Assembly: GCF_000484535.1 (NCBI RefSeq)
Contig: NC_022600.1
Coordinates: 62,001 to 126,000 of the forward strand
Direction of reading: 5' to 3'
Length of the DNA: 64,000 nucleotides
Source: Gloeobacter kilaueensis JS1
GTDB taxonomy: Bacteria; Cyanobacteriota; Cyanobacteriia; Gloeobacterales; Gloeobacteraceae
Under the pieces are notes generated by a model. The model made no database searches, was not told where the DNA came from, and saw only the letters and a program-made list of their open reading frames with translations. Made by a program: the position numbers and the translations under genes. This document shows positions 10,667 to 48,296 of this stretch, in pieces; position 1 is the first letter of the stretch, and each line of letters starts with the position of its first letter.

Positions 10667-10813
10667 TTAAAAACCAGCTATCACGTTTCGGAGCCAGACT
10701 TCGGTTTGCTGCTCCCCGGACAGGGTAGAGGCAATGGTGTCGATCGCCCGGACGGTGTCGTTCGGCGCAAAATCCAGAGCGAGCAGACTTACCCTGACCC
10801 CGACGTAGATACC
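10667..10813 (-). pseudogene. Second, partial copy of the ruvA 3' end
   Basis: The reading frame gives IYVGVRVSLLALDFAPNDT, then VRAIDTIASTLSGEQQ and TEVWLRNVIAGF before a stop. It aligns without gaps to the last 48 or so codons of the intact RuvA at 14896-15516 (IYAEVEMALLALGFAPNET ... EQQTEVWLRSAI). A stop lies two codons upstream of the homology, so only the 3' end is present. Many differences are synonymous. Orientation is the same as the intact ruvA, which places the AT-rich three-gene operon between two ruvA 3' ends. Confidence 0.8.
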
Positions 10814-11155
10814 AAATCAAAGGCAAGGACACAGGTGCTGCCTTAGATAATGACCTATACTATTTCGGTCAGAGCGCTGGTTTCGAGGAGAGCCAATCCC
10901 ATGTACGACCTTTTACGTACGACCTGGACGTAGTTCCCTATCTCTGTACCTCTGCCTTCAATTTAGGAGTACCCCACCTCTCAGGCTTCTAAGGGAAGTA
11001 CCAAATATATTTAACGCTCGAAGAGATCGGTCAGTGTAGTTGCTCCAAAGAGGAATGGCTTGCGGACTGGCTGAAATTCTTACTTATCAGTTGACTTGCT
11101 ATTTAAAGCCTCCGCTCATGTTTGCTACAATTTAGAACCTTATCTGAGAGACAAG
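10814..11155. other. AT-rich non-coding stretch ahead of the three-gene operon
   Basis: No supported gene. It contains a short repeated word, GTACGACCT, at about 10903-10911 and again at 10917-10925, and presumably the operon promoter, which I could not place with confidence. Composition shifts from GC-rich to AT-rich across this stretch. Confidence 0.4.
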
Positions 11156-11602
11156 ATGAGTAATATACGTGGGTTTGCAAAGATCTCTATCTGGCACCCT
11201 AGCTCACTTCAGCAGAATTTTATAGATACAGGAAGCAACACTCTAGTGGATACTTCCTCGTTTTATGAATGTATCTATTCCTTAGAATTGCCCCAAAGTA
11301 CTCTCAACTCAATCACTTGCAATAAACGATCCGATGCTTTGAGAGATGCACTAAATATTCAGCTTTCAGACGATCTAACAAGCAACAAGACAGTACAAGA
11401 CTTTGACAGGCTTATAAAACTCGTTGACGATATCCTTGGAGAGAATGTCTCTAGCTGGATTAGTACAGAGCAAGAGGAAAAATTGAAAAATGGGGATGCA
11501 ATTACTTTGCGTCAACATCAGCTTCTATCCCTTCGACATCATTTGCAGTGGATATATGACACATTTTGTCATCTGCCAGGTATTGCTATTTCAATTCGAT
11601 AG
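11156..11602 (+). CDS. Hypothetical protein, first gene of the PIN-AAA operon
   Basis: A 148-residue protein of unknown family. The ATG at 11156 follows GAGAGACAAG; an upstream in-frame start at 11096 is less likely. No signal peptide, membrane segment or known motif was seen. The second half is helical and charged (KTVQDFDRLIKLVDDILGE, then EEKLKNGDAITLRQHQLLSL). It ends 12 nt before the PIN-domain gene and shares its low GC content. A small specificity or inhibitor subunit is one possibility, but the sequence does not show it. Confidence 0.75.
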   Translation: MSNIRGFAKISIWHPSSLQQNFIDTGSNTLVDTSSFYECIYSLELPQSTLNSITCNKRSDALRDALNIQLSDDLTSNKTVQDFDRLIKLVDDILGENVSSWISTEQEEKLKNGDAITLRQHQLLSLRHHLQWIYDTFCHLPGIAISIR

Positions 11603-11614
11603 AGGTAAGCAAAA

Positions 11615-13726
11615 ATGACTTTTTCGCTTCTCACAAAGCAAGCCGTTGCTAATTTTATCAGTAGAATTATTACCAAAAGTAGCTCATTTAGAATTTATGT
11701 CGGAGAAGATATTTGTTTTGGAGACAATGTATGGGTAGAGATTGGAAAAGTACAATTCTTCTATGTAAAACACGAATTTAACAACTTGAATGCCGTTAAT
11801 TACGGCGGCTTTGAGTGGTCAGTACCTTCAACTGAAGAGCTGTCTGCTAATATCACCAATGCATTAAACGGAGTAGGTAAAATTAGTGAGAAAGAAAGGA
11901 AAGCAATAGAAAAATACTTTGGTCAGGGGTTGCAAGACGTAGTTCGGAGAACCTTACTGCTACTACCAACGTTTGACATTGGTGCTATGGCGAAAATGCC
12001 TCTTCTTAAACCTACAACTATTGTTCCTGACACCACAGCAGTACATCAAGGAGCATTGGACTTTGTTGCAAAATTTTTGATGCCTTATGCTAGGGTAAAA
12101 ATTCCAGCCATCGTCTACATGGAGATTTTGAACAATGTGGACAATTTCTTCTCTAAATTAAGGAACAAGGAAGATAGCAGAGGTAGGTCTTCCTATCGAT
12201 CTCAGGCTCTGAATCAACATATTCTTAGTCAAGGTGGTCAAGGCACGCTGCTGCGTCTTGAATCAAATTCTAATGTCGAATTAGAACGAGGAGATTTGGG
12301 AGCTGATCCTTTACGCGGGATAGTTGCTCCTAGTAACGATCAAGAAGATAAAGCATTGGGATTAACCGGCATTGTCAAAAGTTTTGGGGATCGGCTAATA
12401 GTTGAAACTGCACGTCGATTTCAGCTTCAGGTTCGCCCTAGTCATCCTCTTGTTCTATTAACAAGTGATCAAGGTATGGCTCGAATGGCAATATCTGAAG
12501 GAATTGAAGTTTTTTACTTTCAAGCTCGCTCAACTTCAGGTTTTAGTGGAAAAACATTGACAGGAGTTCTTCATCACCCCTTCAATGGTGGACTATATTT
12601 TGTACCATTTACAGATGTACTTTGGGAACTTGCGATCACCTTCGGTTGCCTACGCCTATCTAATGAAGATGGTGATTCTGTTGAGCTAAGAGCCATAGGC
12701 GCATCAGGAACCATTGATTGGCAACCGTACTATACTCAGCGAGACTTGCTTTTTGGAAGGTTCGGTGAATCTAGTTTGGGTAAGTCTTCAGATTTAGAGG
12801 ATTCCTCAGAGATAACACATATAGAAACCATCTCTCCCATTACTAAGACTGGTGTACAATTTACCAATAAAGAAGATAATACGTCCGCAGAACATACACA
12901 GACTAATATTGACAAAACATTGCAGAATCTTACTGGTTCATACTCATTCTCGCCTAGTAAAATGCTCATTTTAATGAGAGAACTTATAGAGCACGGTAGT
13001 GTTGCTAATAATGAAATTATCGAATTGCTTGACATCAAAACGCGAGATCAAGCAACGCGATACAAAAACTTTCTTCTTAGTGGTAATTTGATAACCACTG
13101 ATGGCAAAAGCTTATTTTGTACTTTAAGCTTGCAAGAACTATGGAATTGTGTGACTACACAAAATATACTCTGTGTAAGGAACTGTCTTATTGACGTTCC
13201 ATCATTTAGTACATTTGTTAATCATCTTAATGAGAGGCGGGTACTGCAAACTATCCCAAACGACTGGCCTGTCTCATCTTCAGCATTGAGGACATACCTA
13301 ATGCTTGGAGATATTGCGGGCTGTTCCCTTTCCATACCTAATATAGGTGTCGTTGCAACTGATTCAGTTTTCAATACAAGCGATTTCGCAAACCGAGCAA
13401 TAAAGGTTTATCAAAGCATAAGTAGTCAGGTCGAGTCTACGTGGATTTTGTCTGGTAGATGGCTAGAGGAGCTGGCTCGTGATTGTGCTTTGCATCCCGT
13501 GTTTTCAAGGGAGAATCTACTGAAAGCTATAGACAAAAATTTGCTCAGCGTGTATGCTGAAGGATCAACACCAGATACTCGGTTTGAGAAGCACCATATG
13601 TGGGCGTTACAGGTAGTAGATGGACGTCCTCAAATCGAAAAAATATTTCTTTATCGCGGTGACTTTCTGTTACCAGGAACAGCGGCTGTAAGAATAAGGA
13701 TTGAAGGAGTTAACCATGCCACTTGA
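11615..13726 (+). CDS. Large PIN-domain protein (predicted nuclease)
   Basis: A 703-residue protein starting after the ribosome-binding site AGAGGTAAG. The pattern of acidic residues fits a PIN-like nuclease: D139 in VPDTTAVHQG, E170 in VYMEIL, D259 and E264 in GDRLIVETA, and D285 in VLLTSDQGMARMA, the classic end of a PIN domain. Residues about 445-520 look like a winged helix (KMLILMRELIEHGSVANNE), and the rest is unassigned. Known PIN proteins cut RNA, less often DNA. It overlaps the ATPase gene by 11 nt, so the two products are probably made in step and may form a complex. AT-rich compared with flanking genes, which suggests transfer. Function is inferred from motifs only. Confidence 0.75.
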   Translation: MTFSLLTKQAVANFISRIITKSSSFRIYVGEDICFGDNVWVEIGKVQFFYVKHEFNNLNAVNYGGFEWSVPSTEELSANITNALNGVGKISEKERKAIEKYFGQGLQDVVRRTLLLLPTFDIGAMAKMPLLKPTTIVPDTTAVHQGALDFVAKFLMPYARVKIPAIVYMEILNNVDNFFSKLRNKEDSRGRSSYRSQALNQHILSQGGQGTLLRLESNSNVELERGDLGADPLRGIVAPSNDQEDKALGLTGIVKSFGDRLIVETARRFQLQVRPSHPLVLLTSDQGMARMAISEGIEVFYFQARSTSGFSGKTLTGVLHHPFNGGLYFVPFTDVLWELAITFGCLRLSNEDGDSVELRAIGASGTIDWQPYYTQRDLLFGRFGESSLGKSSDLEDSSEITHIETISPITKTGVQFTNKEDNTSAEHTQTNIDKTLQNLTGSYSFSPSKMLILMRELIEHGSVANNEIIELLDIKTRDQATRYKNFLLSGNLITTDGKSLFCTLSLQELWNCVTTQNILCVRNCLIDVPSFSTFVNHLNERRVLQTIPNDWPVSSSALRTYLMLGDIAGCSLSIPNIGVVATDSVFNTSDFANRAIKVYQSISSQVESTWILSGRWLEELARDCALHPVFSRENLLKAIDKNLLSVYAEGSTPDTRFEKHHMWALQVVDGRPQIEKIFLYRGDFLLPGTAAVRIRIEGVNHAT

Positions 13727-14876
13727 GCATCTATTTGCTGATGAGGTCCCAGATGCTCGTCCGTATGATCATCGAAGAACTCTGTATGAAAAGTTTGGTA
13801 TCGTCTCAAATCCGTTTCCAAGTGCTAATCAAACTAGTGGTCATCCTCACTTATCAACACCCGCTGACAAGCAAATTGACTCTGAAGTTATAGCATTTTA
13901 TTCTGATCGCAGATCTCACGTCATTGCTGTTACTGCGACTCAGGGAATCGGAAAAACAAATCTTCTAAATGCTTATGAGACTGCTCTTCGCGAGAAGCTT
14001 GCTCCTAAAGGATTTTTTGTGATCAGGTACATTGCAGACCCAGAGCCATCTTTTGACCCACTCATTAGATCAATATTTGAAAACCTTGGTGAAGAGCATT
14101 TAGCAAGAACTGTAACAGAATTACGCAAAAAAATCCAACTTGATTCCAAGAGGCAAGATGTTATAGAGCAAGTGAAAGTTCCAGAAGTAAAGATCATGGT
14201 GAGATCTTTAATTGGAGCTGATACTGATGATAAACTTCAAAGGCGTTGCTCACTTGCTTATCAATGGCTTATAGGGCTTCCTGTTAGGAAAGCGCATCGT
14301 GATGAGATAAGCGTTCAATTTCGGCTTGATACAGTCGAATCTAGAACTCGTGCTCTACAAGACATTGTTTACTTCAGCGCAGCTGTAGGCACTCTTGAGG
14401 GTATCTTTCTATTGTTAGATGAGCTAGAAAAGCAGGGTTCTACATTATCCATTATGAATACAGTAAGATATCTTTCAGCTTTGCGTGCTTTGATAGATGC
14501 ATTGCCAAGATACTTGTTCCTGATGCTAGCTCTTACTCCTGATGCGTTGGAGCGTTATAAAGAGCAAGTGCCAGCTTTAAGGGGTCGCTTGATAAATGAG
14601 GTTTCACTTCCTGCACTGACGACAGAAGAACAAGCTATTGACCTATGGAGATTTTATTTGAATTCGGCCGAAATAGAAGCGAAAAGTCTAGCTGATGACA
14701 ATCAATGGCGAAGGATTCCAAGTGCAGATTTTATTGTAAGCAAGCTTGATGCGCAGCGCCTCTTTGGCGACCTTCTTCGTCGTGGTTCAGTTCGAGGAGC
14801 AAATAGTGTTCGTCAGAGAGAATATCTTCATGCATTACATGAGAGTGCTCGCAGGTCTATTGAGTTAGCTGTTTAA
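13716..14876 (+). CDS. AAA/STAND-like ATPase, partner of the PIN protein
   Basis: A 386-residue P-loop ATPase. The ATG at 13716 follows AAGGAG with 7-nt spacing, better than the TTG at 13701. Walker A is TQGIGKTNLL (K80), and Walker B is GIFLLLDELEK (D235, E236). The region after Walker B (LSALRALIDALPRYLFLMLALTPDALERY) resembles ORC/Cdc6-like and BrxD-like ATPases, with a C-terminal helical domain. It overlaps the PIN gene by 11 nt and ends 19 nt from the convergent ruvA stop. By analogy with known defence systems the ATPase could load or gate the nuclease; this is inference. Confidence 0.82.
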   Translation: MPLEHLFADEVPDARPYDHRRTLYEKFGIVSNPFPSANQTSGHPHLSTPADKQIDSEVIAFYSDRRSHVIAVTATQGIGKTNLLNAYETALREKLAPKGFFVIRYIADPEPSFDPLIRSIFENLGEEHLARTVTELRKKIQLDSKRQDVIEQVKVPEVKIMVRSLIGADTDDKLQRRCSLAYQWLIGLPVRKAHRDEISVQFRLDTVESRTRALQDIVYFSAAVGTLEGIFLLLDELEKQGSTLSIMNTVRYLSALRALIDALPRYLFLMLALTPDALERYKEQVPALRGRLINEVSLPALTTEEQAIDLWRFYLNSAEIEAKSLADDNQWRRIPSADFIVSKLDAQRLFGDLLRRGSVRGANSVRQREYLHALHESARRSIELAV

Positions 14877-14895: not shown

Positions 14896-15516
14896 CTATC
14901 TTTCCTCTGAGAGCCAGCTGATTGCGCTTCTAAGCCAGACTTCGGTCTGTTGTTCTTCGGCCAGGGCCGGGGCGATGGCGTCGAGGGCTTTTACGGTTTC
15001 ATTTGGAGCGAAGCCCAGAGCGAGCAGGGCCATCTCCACCTCGGCGTAGATGCGGGTGTCAGCTTTTGCCCCGACGGCGGCGATGCCCGCCTCCTCGCGC
15101 CACTTAGAAAGGCGGGTGCGCAGTTCGAGGGCGAGGCGTTGGGCGGTCTTGGCACCGATGCCGGGGGCGAGGGCGAGGGCACGGGTGTTGCCCTGGAGGA
15201 TGGCCTGGACCAGTTCGGTGGGAGCAAGGGTTTCGAGGAGCGCCAGGCCCATGCGTGGCCCGATGCCGCTCACCGAGATGAGCTGATCAAAGAGTTCGCG
15301 CTCGCTCGCTTCTAAAAAGCCAAATAGCTGCATCGCGTCCTCGCGGACGATGAAGGCCGTAAAAAGCTTCACCTCCTCGCCGATGCGCGGCAGTTGCCGG
15401 ACGGTGCGGGCATGAATCCAGACGCGGTAGCCGACGCCGCCCACCTCCAGCGTCGCCCAACTCTGGCCGCTGCGTGGACCGACTTCGACAAGCTGGCCGC
15501 GCAAAAAGCTAATCAC
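14896..15516 (-). CDS. ruvA: Holliday junction DNA helicase subunit RuvA
   Basis: A 206-residue RuvA, the tetramer that binds Holliday junctions and recruits RuvB for branch migration. It has the N-terminal OB domain (MISFLRGQLVEV, VGGVGYRVWI), two helix-hairpin-helix motifs (LISVSGIGPRMGLALLE, LALAPGIGAKTAQRLALEL) and the C-terminal RuvB-binding domain (ALLALGFAPNETVKALD). The last 48 or so codons have a diverged second copy at 10667-10813. It lies 18 nt downstream of the CPBP protease gene. Confidence 0.96.
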   Translation of the reverse strand: MISFLRGQLVEVGPRSGQSWATLEVGGVGYRVWIHARTVRQLPRIGEEVKLFTAFIVREDAMQLFGFLEASERELFDQLISVSGIGPRMGLALLETLAPTELVQAILQGNTRALALAPGIGAKTAQRLALELRTRLSKWREEAGIAAVGAKADTRIYAEVEMALLALGFAPNETVKALDAIAPALAEEQQTEVWLRSAISWLSEER

Positions 15517-17601: not shown

Positions 17602-17822
17602 GCGAAAAGACAACTGACACTCAGCCCTGGAGGCCAGATGAGCAGGCTCGTCAACAGCTAAGCGAACAGCTACGGGCGGCTAGCGCGGGCTTGCGCCAGA
17701 GCAGCGCAGCCATCCAGCAACTGATCGATGAGCTGGAGCGCTGCCGGGCGGACAGCCCTCTTGGTCGCTACCATGCCCGCCGCCAGCGTGAAGCGCAAGC
17801 AAAACAAGCTGAGACGGCATGA
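17598..17822 (+). CDS. Small helical protein
   Basis: A 74-residue hydrophilic protein, predicted almost all helix, with EQARQQLSEQLRAASAGLRQ and DELERCRAD. It overlaps the preceding small gene by 4 nt. The layout, two tiny coupled genes with charged helices, recalls toxin-antitoxin pairs, but no family motif supports this. Confidence 0.45.
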   Translation: MSEKTTDTQPWRPDEQARQQLSEQLRAASAGLRQSSAAIQQLIDELERCRADSPLGRYHARRQREAQAKQAETA

Positions 17823-17874
17823 GCGGCACCGCCGGCTCAGTGCATCTAGCAGGGGAGCACGGTTGATTAGCACA

Positions 17875-18330
17875 ATGCAGACAGGATCTAAGGAGGTTTT
17901 GTGCAACGCAAGAGACAGGGGGGATGGTGTGCCTTTTGAAGCTGTAGCGACTGAGCTAAAGTTTTTTAATGAGGCTCAAGCGAGTAAACCCTATTCCAGC
18001 CGAGTTCACATCACTGAGAATGAGATTCAAAGATGGAGTGTCCTGAGCGCTCAGTCACGTACAGTTATGTTTGACCAAATAGCTACCTATCTGGCGCGCA
18101 GCTTCCATAACTCTAAACTGAGCTTTGAATCTTGCAACGCAATCATGAATGATATTTACGGCGTGATAATCTCGGCGGGTGAAAGTCCTCCAGCCCTATT
18201 TTTAGAGATTTACCTCGCATTTGACGAAGGGGAGCACTACCACAACGACAGGCGCGATGAAGATCCTGCTTTAGTATATACAAGATCAAGAATTGCTCAG
18301 ATTCTTGAGGGTTTGTCATCGTCACCGTAG
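17875..18330 (+). CDS. Hypothetical protein
   Basis: About 151 residues if translation starts at the ATG at 17875. A strong AAGGAGG lies at 17890-17896, only 2 nt from an in-frame TTG at 17899, so the true start is unclear. The central part reads VHITENEIQRWSVLSAQSRT and IATYLARSFHNS, with HYHNDRRDEDPALVYTRSRI toward the end. No known domain. The coding potential of the last 110 residues looks real. Confidence 0.55.
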   Translation: MQTGSKEVLCNARDRGDGVPFEAVATELKFFNEAQASKPYSSRVHITENEIQRWSVLSAQSRTVMFDQIATYLARSFHNSKLSFESCNAIMNDIYGVIISAGESPPALFLEIYLAFDEGEHYHNDRRDEDPALVYTRSRIAQILEGLSSSP

Positions 18331-43436: not shown

Positions 43437-43922
43437 TCACTGCGTCTGCTGGTCTCTTGCCTTACGAAACTCTTGCTCAGCCCTGAGCATTTCGATGAAG
43501 GTTTTAGGCTGAATGACGATGTCTTCGAGTGGCAGTTTGCCCATTTTCTGCAGTTGAGCAAAGCTTAGGAGTAATCCTTCTATACCGCCTGGTGCGTCTA
43601 TGTCGTACTCGTCTTCGAGACGGTTCAGTGCATTGGTAGAAATGGGTTTTGCTACTTGTTCGAGCACCACAGTTTCATTGCTGCCTTGAGTACCACGTTC
43701 AGATGCCAGGGCACGGGCAGCAAGCCAACGTACCTCGCCGACGATGGGTGGTAGAGAGGTAATACAGGGACTTCTATCCTGTAATAGTTTTTCGATAAGT
43801 GGAATGAGTCTCGGATCACCAGTTGCTTCACTGGTGAGTGAGCGCAGAGTAATAGCTCTTTGAGCCGCCTCGTTACTGCTCAGACGTTCTTCAAAGCGCT
43901 TTACCCAGTCTTCGGCCAGCAT
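43437..43922 (-). CDS. Immunity-like helical protein (HEAT-like)
   Basis: A 161-residue protein beginning MLAEDWVKRFEERLSSNEAA. It contains TGDPRLIPLIEKLLQDRSPC and EVRWLAARALASERGT, which recall HEAT-repeat immunity proteins, and a C-terminal IEGLLLSFAQLQKMGKLPLE. Closely related to the frameshifted gene at 42879-43254. Family name not recognised. Immunity role inferred from its place in the toxin array. Confidence 0.6.
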   Translation of the reverse strand: MLAEDWVKRFEERLSSNEAAQRAITLRSLTSEATGDPRLIPLIEKLLQDRSPCITSLPPIVGEVRWLAARALASERGTQGSNETVVLEQVAKPISTNALNRLEDEYDIDAPGGIEGLLLSFAQLQKMGKLPLEDIVIQPKTFIEMLRAEQEFRKARDQQTQ

Positions 43923-44016: not shown

Positions 44017-44352
44017 TCAAAAAGCCATAAATGGCCCAAAAAATAATCCTCCTTCCTTCACTATCTTAAGAACCTCATCCTGTGAAGGTAGATCATCAAT
44101 AAACTCAGGCCAAGATTTTTTGATATACTTGTCCCACTGCGCTGGATCAACTTCCCTGATTTTATGCACTAAGTCCTCAAATATATAGCCTTTTCCAGCC
44201 ATTTCTAACACACATTGTCGCAAAGCAGATTCATAATCTGGAGCACTTGAATAACAATTTACGAAGGCATGGTTTGTACCAGGCGGAAGTTCAGAATCTG
44301 CCTCACCCCGCACTCTGACCGTAAGCTCATATAGACTATTATTTTGACTCAT
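44017..44352 (-). CDS. Hypothetical protein, possible immunity gene
   Basis: A 111-residue protein: SLYELTVRVRGEADSELPPG at the start, then NCYSSAPDYESALRQCVLEM and the C-terminal GGLFFGPFMAF. The alpha/beta pattern is like small immunity or thioesterase-like proteins, but no family is certain. It lies 24 nt downstream of the next upstream gene in the array and is AT-richer than the host average. Confidence 0.6.
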   Translation of the reverse strand: MSQNNSLYELTVRVRGEADSELPPGTNHAFVNCYSSAPDYESALRQCVLEMAGKGYIFEDLVHKIREVDPAQWDKYIKKSWPEFIDDLPSQDEVLKIVKEGGLFFGPFMAF

Positions 44353-44376: not shown

Positions 44377-44895
44377 CTAAAGCTCCTCGAAATGATCTGC
44401 ACCCGTAGCTTCAAGCAACTTGAAGAAGGCGTCTAGAGCAACAGGATACCCTTCTACGAGCAGTCTTACAACGTACTCATGAGTTCCAGTGCTGTCTAGA
44501 CTCCAGTAGTACCACTCTCGTTCACCAGACTCGAACCAACAGATCCAGTTTGATAGAGACCACCGCTGCTTATTAGACGCTAGTTCTAGCTTCTCTGCGT
44601 AGCTCATACTATCCAGCATCTGTAAGTAGGCAAGCTTCTCCTCCTCCGTTTTTTCAGGTTCAAAAGCCGCAGTAAACCAGTCTGGCAAGATATTGTGCCA
44701 GTCGTCATCGCTCGGCCAATCTTTATCTAATGCTTTCTCGTCAATCAAGGACAGGATTTCTTTGAATCTCAAAATGACCGTTTCACACGAATCGGAGCAA
44801 GTTACCTTATATGTTAGGAGTCCTGCCATCGAGCCAGGAGCAATAGCTGTCTGTTGATTTCGCAGGCGCTCTAATTCCTGGACTATTTCCTGCAT
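44377..44895 (-). CDS. Hypothetical protein, likely cognate immunity of the large toxin
   Basis: A 172-residue acidic protein. It contains YKVTCSDSCETVILRFKEIL, DWHNILPDWFTAAFEPEKTE, SNWICWFESGEREWYYWSLD and VRLLVEGYPVALDAFFKLLE. It follows the 1071-residue toxin gene by 50 nt, the position expected for the cognate immunity gene. Family not recognised. Confidence 0.65.
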   Translation of the reverse strand: MQEIVQELERLRNQQTAIAPGSMAGLLTYKVTCSDSCETVILRFKEILSLIDEKALDKDWPSDDDWHNILPDWFTAAFEPEKTEEEKLAYLQMLDSMSYAEKLELASNKQRWSLSNWICWFESGEREWYYWSLDSTGTHEYVVRLLVEGYPVALDAFFKLLEATGADHFEEL

Positions 44896-44945: not shown

Positions 44946-47900
44946 TCATTCACTTCTAATTTTACCCGTGCCTTGAATTATAACCTCTCTGAGTGTTTTT
45001 ATCTGTTCTTCAGTCAGACCAAATTGATCTGAAGCTTTCGTTGGGTCGGCAATTTCCGGCCTGTTTGGAAATTGCTTCTTCTCGCTTTGAGGAACAGCAA
45101 TCCTTCTCATCTCTTCTAGAAACGGTTCAGGCACATCAAAAGATTTCACTTGGGTATCCGGAAATTGTTTTGAACGTTGCTGAAGGAACTCCTCTGCTCG
45201 CGCTTCGTCTCCAAAGTTCAAAAAGAGTGCACGTTCCGGCCCTTTACCCTTCTTGCTTCTTACAACAGGAATGTCTACACCTCCGTTTTTATCGATAAGA
45301 ACACGTTGGTTGCCTTCACCCTCTACTCTATAAACTGTTACATTCCTGTCTTCGGCTGCAGTCTGATTGTCTTCATCTTCAGGCAAAGATTCGCTTGCGT
45401 CATCGTTGCTGTTGTCGTTGCTGGGTTCTTCTTCCTCTGGGTTGTTCTGCCCCTCCTCGTTACCCTCCTCGTTGCCGGAACCTTCCTCCTCGTTGCGGTT
45501 GCGCGGCGGCTCATCCCCATCGCCGTTGCCGTTGCCATCGCCGTTGCTGCCACCCTCGGTCTCCGGGCTCGCCGCTGTCTCGCTCTCTTCTGAGCGCCGG
45601 CGCTCGTTCGACTGGCCTGAAGCAGGCTCTTCGATGGGCGTCGGAGCAGCATCAGGCTTCGACGAGCGTTCGGCACCAACCGCTACCGGCTCGCGCTCCA
45701 CCACCGACGGCTCGAAGGGAGTCTGACCGCTCTCGGGCAACTGGGGCACCTCGACGGTGGGCAGCGGCACTTCCCCCTGGGCATTGCGCAAGGGCGAACC
45801 CTCCGGCAACTCGGGCGCAGGGGGCACCTCACCCGCTGGCACCTCGACACGGGCACGGCCCAGACGATTCAGACTCGCCTCGATGCCCACACCGGTCGCT
45901 GTGTTGAGCACGATGTTGCTCGGGTCAAACGCCTCCAGACCACTGTTGCCGACTGCCGAGAGCTTCTGCTCCAGACTCAGGTTCGGGTCGAAGGCCACAC
46001 CGGCAGCGGTGTTGAGCATACCGCCCACCGCGTTTTGATAGGTGCCTTCGACCACCTGATGACCGATGAACTTGCTCGCGCCCTGAGCAATCGCACTCTC
46101 GGCAATTTCTCTACCCAGTACCTGCTCGGTCGCTCCGAGAATGCCCTTACTGGCCGCTCCCCCGACTGCTCCCACTCCAGGAATTGGAATGGCTGAAAGC
46201 GCACCGGTCTGCAAACCGCTGAGCGCATCGTTGCCCATCTGCTCAAGGCTGTACTGGTGACCGGAGGCGGTTTCATCGGCGGCGTTGATGGCAACATTGG
46301 CCGCCGCTCCTGTCCCAGCCGCAGCGAGCATCGCCACTCCTGCTCCCGCTCCGGCTCCACCGGTGGCGACGGTGACACCGACGGCGGCAACGGTGACAAG
46401 CCCCATCTTCAGCATCTCTCCCCCGGCGTTGAAGTCCTGGGAGAATTTCTGCACGCTGCCATTGACATCGTTGATGGTCTGAGCCATCAGCCCCGGCGGC
46501 GGGGGCGGTGGTGTCTGCTCGCCGGAGGGATTTTGTTGAGCGGCAGCAGCGGCGGCCTGCTGTTGTGGGTCGCCGTAGAGTTCCGAGTTCAACCGCTGGA
46601 TGGCGGTGTTGTCGCCGTTTTTGATGGCGGTTTCCAGTTCGTTGAACTTGCTGTCGAGCTGGTCGAGCTTTTGTTTGGTCTGGGCTTCGACGGCGGAGGA
46701 GGAGTCCTCCTGCATAAGCTTGTGGTCTTCGTCCTTATCGCCGTTGCCGGTCAGAAAGTTCCAGGCATCTCCGGCCACGTCGGCGACGGTGTTGACGGTA
46801 TTTTCAAGAACGGCTTTGCCTGTGTCGGCGGCGCGGTCGAGAACGGTGCCGTCCTCGTTGACGATTTTGTTGAACTGGGCATCGACCTGCTGTCGGTAGT
46901 TGGCGAGTTCAGCGCGGGCCTGGCTGAGTTGCTGGAGTTGTTGCTGCTGGAGCTGTTCGGCAGTCAGGGGTTGTGCGGCATTTGGTGGAGCCTGTGGGTT
47001 GGTATTGGTGCCGCTCTGAGCGTTGGTGTCGGCTGCGCTCGGGTTGGCATTGGGCTGGGAGCCGTCATCAGCGTTAACGTCTGTCTGAGGGTTGTTGTTG
47101 TCTGGATTGTCCGGGTCCGCATTTGCCTGCGCTGCGCCGTCCGGGTCCGGGTTCGCCTGAGCTTCCTCATCTGAGTCAGAGTTGCCAAAGAGGTTGGTGA
47201 ACGTCTCGCCCAAATCGCCAAAGGTACCCGCAAGGAAGTTTTCCGCCTGCTCTGGCAGAGCTGCAGGATTGCTCACTGCGCCCAGTGCGGCTTCACCAAA
47301 ATCGCTCAGCCCCTCCCAGATGTTACTCAGCCCTTCACCGAGAGCGCCCAGGGCTGAGCCAGAATCGTCCGGCTGGGCATTCGCACTCGGCTCGCTTTGC
47401 TGCTTTGAATCGGCCCCGCCCAGAGCGAGCAGGTCCGATACGGCCTCTGTGGCAGAGGTGAACAATTCGGAGAGGGGATTGTCATCTTCATCAGCTGCTG
47501 GGTTTTCATCAGTTGAAAGAGGAGTCTGTTGGTCGTCCGTTACATCAAGAGCATAGCTGGGCACGTCTTCAGAACCCGGCAGTCCATCGGCTGAATCGTC
47601 GAAGGGCAACGACTCGGCGTCTGGATTATCAATAGCCAGCGGCTCACCATCGCGAGCAAAAAGGGCATCTGAGGCGAAAGCCTCGCCATCCGACTGGTCA
47701 TCGGTGTCGGTTATATCCAGTGGCAGAGTGTCCGGGTCATCCAGGGCGGTGGGAGCTGGTGCGTCGTCTATTCCTGGCAAATAGTCGAAGTCGGCGTCTG
47801 TCGCCTCGCTGCCACCGTCGAAGGCACTCGGGTCTACTGCAGTGTCGTCAAAGAAGAGCGGGTCGGCTTCTGCTGTGTCGGCGGGGTCAAAATCCACATC

Positions 47901-48161
47901 GGCAGTCGCGTCGGCTCCATCGCTGCCTGCAAAGTTGTACTCATCGTCTTCGGCTCTCCAGTCCGTGCTGTCATCTGCTGCCCAGGCCGTATCGTCGGTG
48001 TCAAAGTCAGCTTCGGCGACAGCGCTGGCAGTGTCATCAGCGGCTGGTGCATCGCTGGGGATGTCTGCTTCGAGTTCAGAAGCAGGGGATTGCTCCTCGG
48101 GGGAGGCGGCTTCGTCCTCCTCGGTATCGTCGCTTGGGGAGTAGTCTTCCTCGTCAGGCAT
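44946..48161 (-). CDS. Multidomain polymorphic toxin
   Basis: A 1071-residue protein. Residues 1-280 are very acidic, Asp/Ala-rich low complexity. Around 282-330 lie amphipathic helices (NIWEGLSDFGEAALGAV). Residues 405-470 are a Gln-rich coiled coil, and 550 has a PPPPPPG linker. Residues 584-625 are hydrophobic (GLVTVAAVGVTVATGGAGAG), like the pre-toxin region of polymorphic toxins. Residues 857-924 are an acidic linker, and 942-1071 form a compact C-terminal domain (VTVYRVEGEGNQRVLIDKNG, ALFLNFGDEARAEEFLQQRS, EMRRIAVP) that is probably the toxin. It could be ADP-ribosyltransferase-like, but this is uncertain. Immunity-like genes follow. The ATG at 48161 is preferred over 48236. Confidence 0.75.
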   Translation of the reverse strand: MPDEEDYSPSDDTEEDEAASPEEQSPASELEADIPSDAPAADDTASAVAEADFDTDDTAWAADDSTDWRAEDDEYNFAGSDGADATADVDFDPADTAEADPLFFDDTAVDPSAFDGGSEATDADFDYLPGIDDAPAPTALDDPDTLPLDITDTDDQSDGEAFASDALFARDGEPLAIDNPDAESLPFDDSADGLPGSEDVPSYALDVTDDQQTPLSTDENPAADEDDNPLSELFTSATEAVSDLLALGGADSKQQSEPSANAQPDDSGSALGALGEGLSNIWEGLSDFGEAALGAVSNPAALPEQAENFLAGTFGDLGETFTNLFGNSDSDEEAQANPDPDGAAQANADPDNPDNNNPQTDVNADDGSQPNANPSAADTNAQSGTNTNPQAPPNAAQPLTAEQLQQQQLQQLSQARAELANYRQQVDAQFNKIVNEDGTVLDRAADTGKAVLENTVNTVADVAGDAWNFLTGNGDKDEDHKLMQEDSSSAVEAQTKQKLDQLDSKFNELETAIKNGDNTAIQRLNSELYGDPQQQAAAAAAQQNPSGEQTPPPPPPGLMAQTINDVNGSVQKFSQDFNAGGEMLKMGLVTVAAVGVTVATGGAGAGAGVAMLAAAGTGAAANVAINAADETASGHQYSLEQMGNDALSGLQTGALSAIPIPGVGAVGGAASKGILGATEQVLGREIAESAIAQGASKFIGHQVVEGTYQNAVGGMLNTAAGVAFDPNLSLEQKLSAVGNSGLEAFDPSNIVLNTATGVGIEASLNRLGRARVEVPAGEVPPAPELPEGSPLRNAQGEVPLPTVEVPQLPESGQTPFEPSVVEREPVAVGAERSSKPDAAPTPIEEPASGQSNERRRSEESETAASPETEGGSNGDGNGNGDGDEPPRNRNEEEGSGNEEGNEEGQNNPEEEEPSNDNSNDDASESLPEDEDNQTAAEDRNVTVYRVEGEGNQRVLIDKNGGVDIPVVRSKKGKGPERALFLNFGDEARAEEFLQQRSKQFPDTQVKSFDVPEPFLEEMRRIAVPQSEKKQFPNRPEIADPTKASDQFGLTEEQIKTLREVIIQGTGKIRSE

Positions 48162-48296
48162 AGCACCACACTGGGAGGTTCGGTCCACAGTCAGGCCAGC
48201 CAGAAAAGAATGCCATACACTCCGCAGGCAGTCCACTGGCCGGATCGGACCGTCAAAATCTTAGGGAAGAAGCTTAAGTTTTGTAAGCAGGACGAT

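Follow-up and report, generated by a model that had tools for sequence, protein, structure and literature searches.

The question raised by this locus is what a compact cluster of three AT-rich genes does in the GC-rich genome of the cyanobacterium Gloeobacter kilaueensis JS1. The cluster occupies positions 11156 to 14876 of a 64,000-nucleotide stretch of contig NC_022600.1 (hereafter the window), and its genes are referred to in their order as g1, g2 and g3. The original prediction, which was made from the sequence alone, read them as a small protein, a PIN nuclease and an AAA ATPase with the architecture expected of an anti-phage module. Based on the analysis presented here, we consider it probable that the operon is a complete and self-contained anti-phage module that moves by horizontal transfer. 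Its ATPase would serve as a switch, the PIN protein as the effector and g1 as an adaptor or sensor. It would thus be a compact candidate immune system, absent from the catalogues searched, which occurs in bacteria, in an archaeon and also in a temperate phage.

Conservation and distribution of the three-gene unit

The layout described in the original prediction, three tightly packed plus-strand genes with a 12-nucleotide gap between g1 and g2 and an 11-nucleotide overlap between g2 and g3, was reproduced in its open reading frames, its spacings and its base composition. The guanine-plus-cytosine (GC) content was 0.39 to 0.43 over 11-15 kb in comparison to approximately 0.58 to 0.65 in both flanks, and the host genome is a single 4.72-Mb contig. 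The ATG starts at 11156, 11615 and 13716 were backed by alignment with relatives.

Protein and profile searches identified 20 further loci, of which 11 were from cyanobacteria (Nostoc, Dolichospermum, Calothrix and genome G251), two were from Deltaproteobacteria, and one each was from Candidatus Hatepunaea, Riflebacteria, Thioploca, Chloroflexi, a Thermoplasmata archaeon, the Ensifer canadensis plasmid pT173c and a virus contig. The plasmid was the only plasmid record with a g2 relative, and no relatives were found in sequenced cultured phages. The complete trio was present in the same order and on the same strand in 17 of the 20 relatives, with g3 cut by the contig end in one of them, so that the search for the same three genes in other genomes suggested by the original prediction returned a gene order conserved across phyla. 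The other three units were damaged: g1 was split in the deltaproteobacterium NaphS2, g2 was broken in a Thioploca metagenome-assembled genome, and in Riflebacteria g1 was not found and g2 was truncated. The distance between g1 and g2 ranged from -50 to +25 nucleotides and the overlap between g2 and g3 from 4 to 20 nucleotides. Since the three genes recur in one order and with near-identical spacing across phyla, the arrangement is not a matter of chance.

Within the main branch, g2 of the window was 46% identical to the proteins of other phyla in comparison to 46% to 49% for those of Nostoc, and the phage, Ensifer and Chloroflexi copies formed a well-separated second branch with a support of 100/100. 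The unit occurred in 2 of 386 cyanobacterial genomes and in 1 of 297 genomes of the phylum of NaphS2, where each count includes the query genome itself, and an occurrence so rare yet so widely spread is indicative of horizontal transfer. The module was also AT-richer than its flanks in most loci (GC of 0.55 in comparison to 0.63 for the phage, and 0.51 in comparison to 0.57 for Ensifer). The ratio of nonsynonymous to synonymous substitution rates (dN/dS) among Nostoc pairs was approximately 0.2 to 0.34 for g2, 0.04 to 0.26 for g3 and 0.05 to 0.69 for g1, values of purifying selection which suggest that the genes are kept in Nostoc, g1 the least strictly.

Predicted properties of the three proteins

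Residue conservation was scored over 17 aligned g2 and 16 aligned g3 proteins, and the alignments used for structure prediction were those without rows from the plasmid record. The acidic residues originally proposed for a PIN active site (D139, E170, D259 and D285) were all found at those positions in g2; D139, D259 and D285 were invariant in 17 of 17 proteins, as were D242 and E264, and D176 was kept in 16 of 17, whereas E170 proved not to be universal. The Pfam family PIN_4 was matched by 5 of the 17 proteins at an E-value (E) of 0.01 or better. Structure prediction, which had been suggested as a check for a PIN active site, gave a g2 model with a mean predicted local distance difference test score (pLDDT) of 80 that contains a PIN domain at approximately residues 132-305, winged helices from residue 446 and a low-confidence linker at residues 387-437.

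Sequence searches against solved structures were empty or at chance level. In the comparison of the g2 model with solved structures, the top match was SiRe_0806 of Sulfolobus islandicus with cyclic tetra-adenylate (cA4; PDB 9jxw and 9jxx), with a Z score (Z) of 15.4 across 244 residues that clearly exceeded those of the other rows, and the match spanned model residues 1-403 in comparison to chain residues 152-416 at about 14% identity. The match takes in the N-terminal half of g2 with its PIN domain, whereas the rest of g2 forms winged helices and its gene is coupled to that of an ATPase; no text on SiRe_0806 was found in the open-licence literature. Compared with single PIN domains, the PIN region of g2 gave a Z of 9.5 for the Methanocaldococcus jannaschii structure 3i8o and of 8.4 to 8.5 for the SMG6 PIN domain. 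The winged helices matched MarR-like folds with a Z of up to 9.8, the unit at residues 446-516 being a clear match and further units being read from the helix and strand pattern. Although the sequence match is weak, the predicted fold supports the call that g2 is a PIN nuclease.

For g3, the Pfam family AAA_22 was matched by all 16 members and BrxC_BrxD by 4 of 16 with an E of at most 0.01 (lowest 8.7e-6); g3 of the window was not among the listed matches. The Walker A motif GxGKT corresponds to G77, G79, K80 and T81 and the Walker B residues are D235 and E236. As the original claim of a Walker A/B ATPase would lead one to expect, K80, T81, D235 and E236 were invariant in 16 of 16 proteins, and two arginines, R257 and R291, were also invariant. 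Judged from its sequence, g3 is an AAA+ ATPase, probably of the BrxC/BrxD-like kind. A distant g3 relative (23% identity), annotated as a BREX ATP-binding protein, was seen on a plasmid of the haloarchaeon Salinigranum marinum (locus L004, 6033-10216), where it adjoins a tRNA-guanine transglycosylase gene and an HNH endonuclease, an arrangement which resembles a 7-deazaguanine DNA-modification locus; with no g2 present in the stretch, this locus was set aside.

The g1 model was an alpha/beta structure of moderate confidence (pLDDT of 81.8), and its comparison with solved structures gave no match above noise (best Z of 4.8). In NaphS2 (locus L018), g1 is split by a DDE_3-type insertion element (L018:8304-9490), while g2 and g3 stay open. 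Because g2 is intact where the insertion element broke g1, g1 is probably not an essential antitoxin and is likelier to be an adaptor or sensor.

With respect to known systems, PADLOC-DB 2.0.0 (2023) gave only chance-level matches for g3 (E of 0.025 to 0.04) and none for g1 and g2, and Pfam, NCBIfam and PADLOC offered no named family or system for the trio beyond the weak PIN and AAA matches, in agreement with the original prediction, in which the combination was not recognised as a named system. No description of the trio was found in the open-licence literature. The parts, a PIN nuclease and a BrxC/D-like ATPase, are known ones, and their combination was not found described there.

Genomic contexts and the phage cargo slot

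Several copies of the unit lie near defence genes, a context for which the original prediction had suggested a search. On pT173c of Ensifer, the immediate neighbour of the unit, in tail-to-tail orientation, is a complete locus composed of DUF499 - hypothetical - DUF1156 - hypothetical - SNF2, and a DUF499 ATPase, an N6-methyltransferase and a Swi2/Snf2 helicase form the core of systems related to bacteriophage exclusion, or BREX (PMC12839542). In the Thermoplasmata archaeon, a methyltransferase and a type II restriction enzyme (REase_II, E 2e-105) lie upstream of the unit, and an HNH protein, a D12 methyltransferase and another REase_II lie within 8 kb downstream. The next gene in one deltaproteobacterial copy (L016) encodes a DrmMI/type IIG-like methyltransferase. 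In several Nostoc genomes (L009, L010, L013, L014, L015 and L020), the module is immediately preceded by a VapBC-like toxin-antitoxin pair.

The virus contig with one copy of the unit encodes a head protease, scaffold, major head and tail proteins as well as an integrase, as in a temperate phage, and the module is flanked on either side by a conserved tail-region gene. We gathered 80 related contigs from IMG/VR (L040-L119; kin of IMGVR_UViG_3300047539_000167) by a tail-protein scan, of which 69 contained both flanks (the homologues of L005:6642-7013 and L005:11033-11488). The length of the slot between the flanks in these 69 contigs varied between 31 bp and 6.7 kb and took 61 different values with a standard deviation of 1173, in comparison to a gap of 54 to 57 bp with a standard deviation of 1 for the preceding gene pair, and in one phage (L079) the slot was essentially empty. 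The other slots held approximately 90 cargo families, most of which were seen once and most of which have no assigned function, beside known defence genes. The 57 cargo proteins examined included Vsr, C5 methylase, GmrSD_N, HigB, IrrE peptidase, PD-(D/E)XK_4, KAP, HD-CE, DzbA (E 1.3e-42) and NsnA/PD-T4-2_A (E 4e-31), as well as proteins resembling type II restriction enzymes. The slot is a hypervariable cargo hotspot of an uncultivated temperate phage group and is likely a reservoir of undescribed systems.

In the hotspots of P2/P4 phages and satellites, fast-changing defence cargo likewise occupies a short interval with a conserved phage gene on each side (PMC9122126), whereas the slot described here is flanked by tail genes and belongs to another phage group, which is uncultivated; the trio is one of its many cargoes. 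By this analogy, the circumstantial evidence is strong that the trio is carried as cargo useful in virus-virus competition, without every slot gene being a defence gene. As a separate observation, two slot cargo proteins matched the Pfam family ORC-CDC6-like (best E 8.9e-89), which suggests that other ATPases of the broad kind of g3 also use the slot.

Proposed mechanism and alternative explanations

In the mechanism that we propose, g3 would be an ATP-dependent sensor or switch, as is thought for its BrxC/BrxD-like relatives, and would oligomerise on, or be triggered by, invading phage DNA or a phage-made complex. The effector g2 may be held by g3 and g1 via its winged-helix half and, once released, its metal-dependent PIN domain would cut RNA and halt phage production, with or without cell death, while g1 would not be an antitoxin but a subunit that serves as adaptor or sensor. 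RNA is the usual substrate of the PIN family, and because the family mostly cuts RNA, RNA decay and arrest in infected cells would be the likeliest output. The anti-phage activity, the RNA target, the ATP-gated activation and the role of g1 are all parts that we infer. A bolder version, which we hold tentatively and with somewhat less than even confidence, is that an ATPase of the BREX lineage, uncoupled from methylation, helicase and PglZ, gates a PIN ribonuclease through winged helices, with g1 as a sensor of possibly new fold, the whole forming a new class of stand-alone immunity; if true, the BREX-type ATPase would be an interchangeable invader sensor which can be wired to RNA-cutting effectors. 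The trio links BREX-type ATPases, whose invader-sensing role is unsettled, to a one-effector output, and it could therefore be used to test what such ATPases recognise.

A defence role of the trio is well supported by inference from its gene order, the PIN fold and the defence contexts, and the claim of an anti-phage architecture stands in this sense, with the function inferred and with several copies, including that of the window, standing alone. A number of results weigh against this interpretation. The PIN_4 match of the window g2 was marginal (E 5e-4, with 20.9 bits in comparison to the curated cut-off of 21.9). E170, a classical acidic position, was kept in only 14 of the 17 proteins and was replaced by T, V and T in the divergent branch, and ribonuclease rather than deoxyribonuclease activity was assumed from the PIN family. 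In the divergent branch (phage, Ensifer and Chloroflexi), g1 was 11% to 16% identical to that of the window and was equated with it mainly by position. Many of the phage-slot cargo genes were without known function, and no recognisable defence system was the immediate neighbour of the copies in the window, Nostoc, G251, NaphS2, Hatepunaea and Thioploca. The existence of solitary systems that are missed by co-localisation methods is a motive stated in PMC13092281.

Among the alternatives, the one that survives best, though we regard it as unlikely, is a toxin-antitoxin or stress module in which g2 is a PIN toxin checked by g1 and g3 and which serves addiction or general stress without acting specifically against phages. 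The best-known PIN domains are those of VapC, the operon is tight with a small first gene, as in VapBC where a PIN nuclease stands beside a small protein, and the VapBC-like pairs described above lie directly upstream of several Nostoc copies. However, g2, with 703 amino acids, is approximately five times larger and has winged helices and a dedicated ATPase partner, both unlike VapBC; the intact g2 of NaphS2 argues that g1 was not needed there to keep g2 harmless; and the contexts are restriction loci, a BREX-related locus and a phage cargo slot. The systems DS-3 and DS-5 from DefensePredictor are of interest in this respect, since the PIN nuclease was required for defence in both, and no toxicity arose in DS-5 when the partner gene was lost (PMC13092281), which is also what the broken g1 in NaphS2 suggests for the trio. 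Judged by their descriptions, both are set apart from the trio: DS-3 is one protein with a split PIN domain, DS-5 combines a PIN protein with a DUF5830/AcrIF4-like one, and neither is described with an AAA+ ATPase.

It is less probable still that the trio does not act on its own but assists BREX-related systems as an auxiliary or backup effector. The complete DUF499/DUF1156/SNF2 locus lies directly beside the Ensifer copy, g3 resembles BrxC/BrxD ATPases, and PIN-endoRNases have been reported as uncommon backup effectors of BREX-related systems (PMC12839542), but one copy only has such a neighbour, most copies are without a BREX component nearby, and BrxC_BrxD was unmatched in the genome of the window. 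An identity with BREX itself was rejected, as the core of BrxC, methyltransferase and PglZ is absent from the window unit and from most copies. Unlike BREX, the unit is without methyltransferase, PglZ and helicase, has one short ATPase (g3) and a PIN protein as its effector, and occurs elsewhere without BREX.

We give even less credence to the explanation that the trio is a cyclic-oligonucleotide-regulated effector operon akin to type III CRISPR accessories, in which a nucleotide messenger would activate g2, as may be the case for SiRe_0806. SiRe_0806 with cA4 was the top structural match, yet the first 151 residues of that protein are unmatched by g2, none of the 17 aligned g2 proteins matched a CARF-type Pfam family, and the copies examined were not adjacent to CRISPR genes; judged by this context, the trio is probably not a type III CRISPR accessory.

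A housekeeping operon for RNA processing or DNA repair, or a transposition module of a nuclease and a TniB/ExeA-like ATPase, is very improbable: the N-terminal FGxxxNPFP motif and AAA_22 fold of g3, which we take to recall transposon and secretion ATPases, and the inheritance of the Nostocales copies at a few stable sites would fit it, whereas the distribution is rare and patchy, no inverted repeats were found around the operon, the unit is without a DDE transposase or recombinase, the catalytic residues are those of PIN rather than DDE, and none of the homologues examined belonged to a transposon or housekeeping module.

Flanking sequence and other features of the window

The features of the anti-phage candidate and of its upstream flank are listed in Table 1.

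Table 1. Positions of the operon, its domains and the upstream ruvA fragment in the window.
Feature	Position	Strand	Description
g1	11156..11602	+	148 aa; small alpha/beta protein; no family, no confident fold match
g2	11615..13726	+	703 aa; predicted PIN nuclease; alpha/beta region at the N terminus, winged-helix region at the C terminus
PIN domain of g2	12008..12529	+	residues ~132-305; fold matches and invariant acidic residues
Winged-helix (MarR-like) region of g2	12950..13564	+	residues ~446-650
g3	13716..14876	+	386 aa from ATG 13716; AAA+ ATPase, BrxC/BrxD-ORC/Cdc6-like by sequence
ruvA 3' fragment, decayed	10684..10903	-	71-74% to ruvA at 14925-15253; just upstream of the operon

The two parts of a ruvA duplication enclose the operon, the decayed 3' copy lying upstream and the functional ruvA, in the same orientation, downstream. 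Integration at a gene end with ruvA re-supplied by the element was rejected as the cause of the duplication; the functional ruvA does not look re-supplied, because it is uniformly similar to its relatives along its whole length. A clean empty site could not be shown in other genomes of the same family, where the synteny left of ruvA was lost. Promoter and terminator scans of the operon were at the level of shuffled sequence and no promoter is thus claimed, and Rfam gave no match around the operon.

Elsewhere in the window, a 200-amino-acid open reading frame of unassigned nature (17728-18330, plus strand) lies beside an AT-rich stretch at 18-19 kb (GC of 0.47). On the minus strand, positions 44946-48236 encode a 1096-amino-acid low-complexity protein which looks like a large protein of the interbacterial-toxin type, and it is followed by small AT-rich genes at 44377-44895, 44017-44352 and 43437-43922 (GC of 0.43 to 0.49), also on the minus strand, which could be immunity genes.

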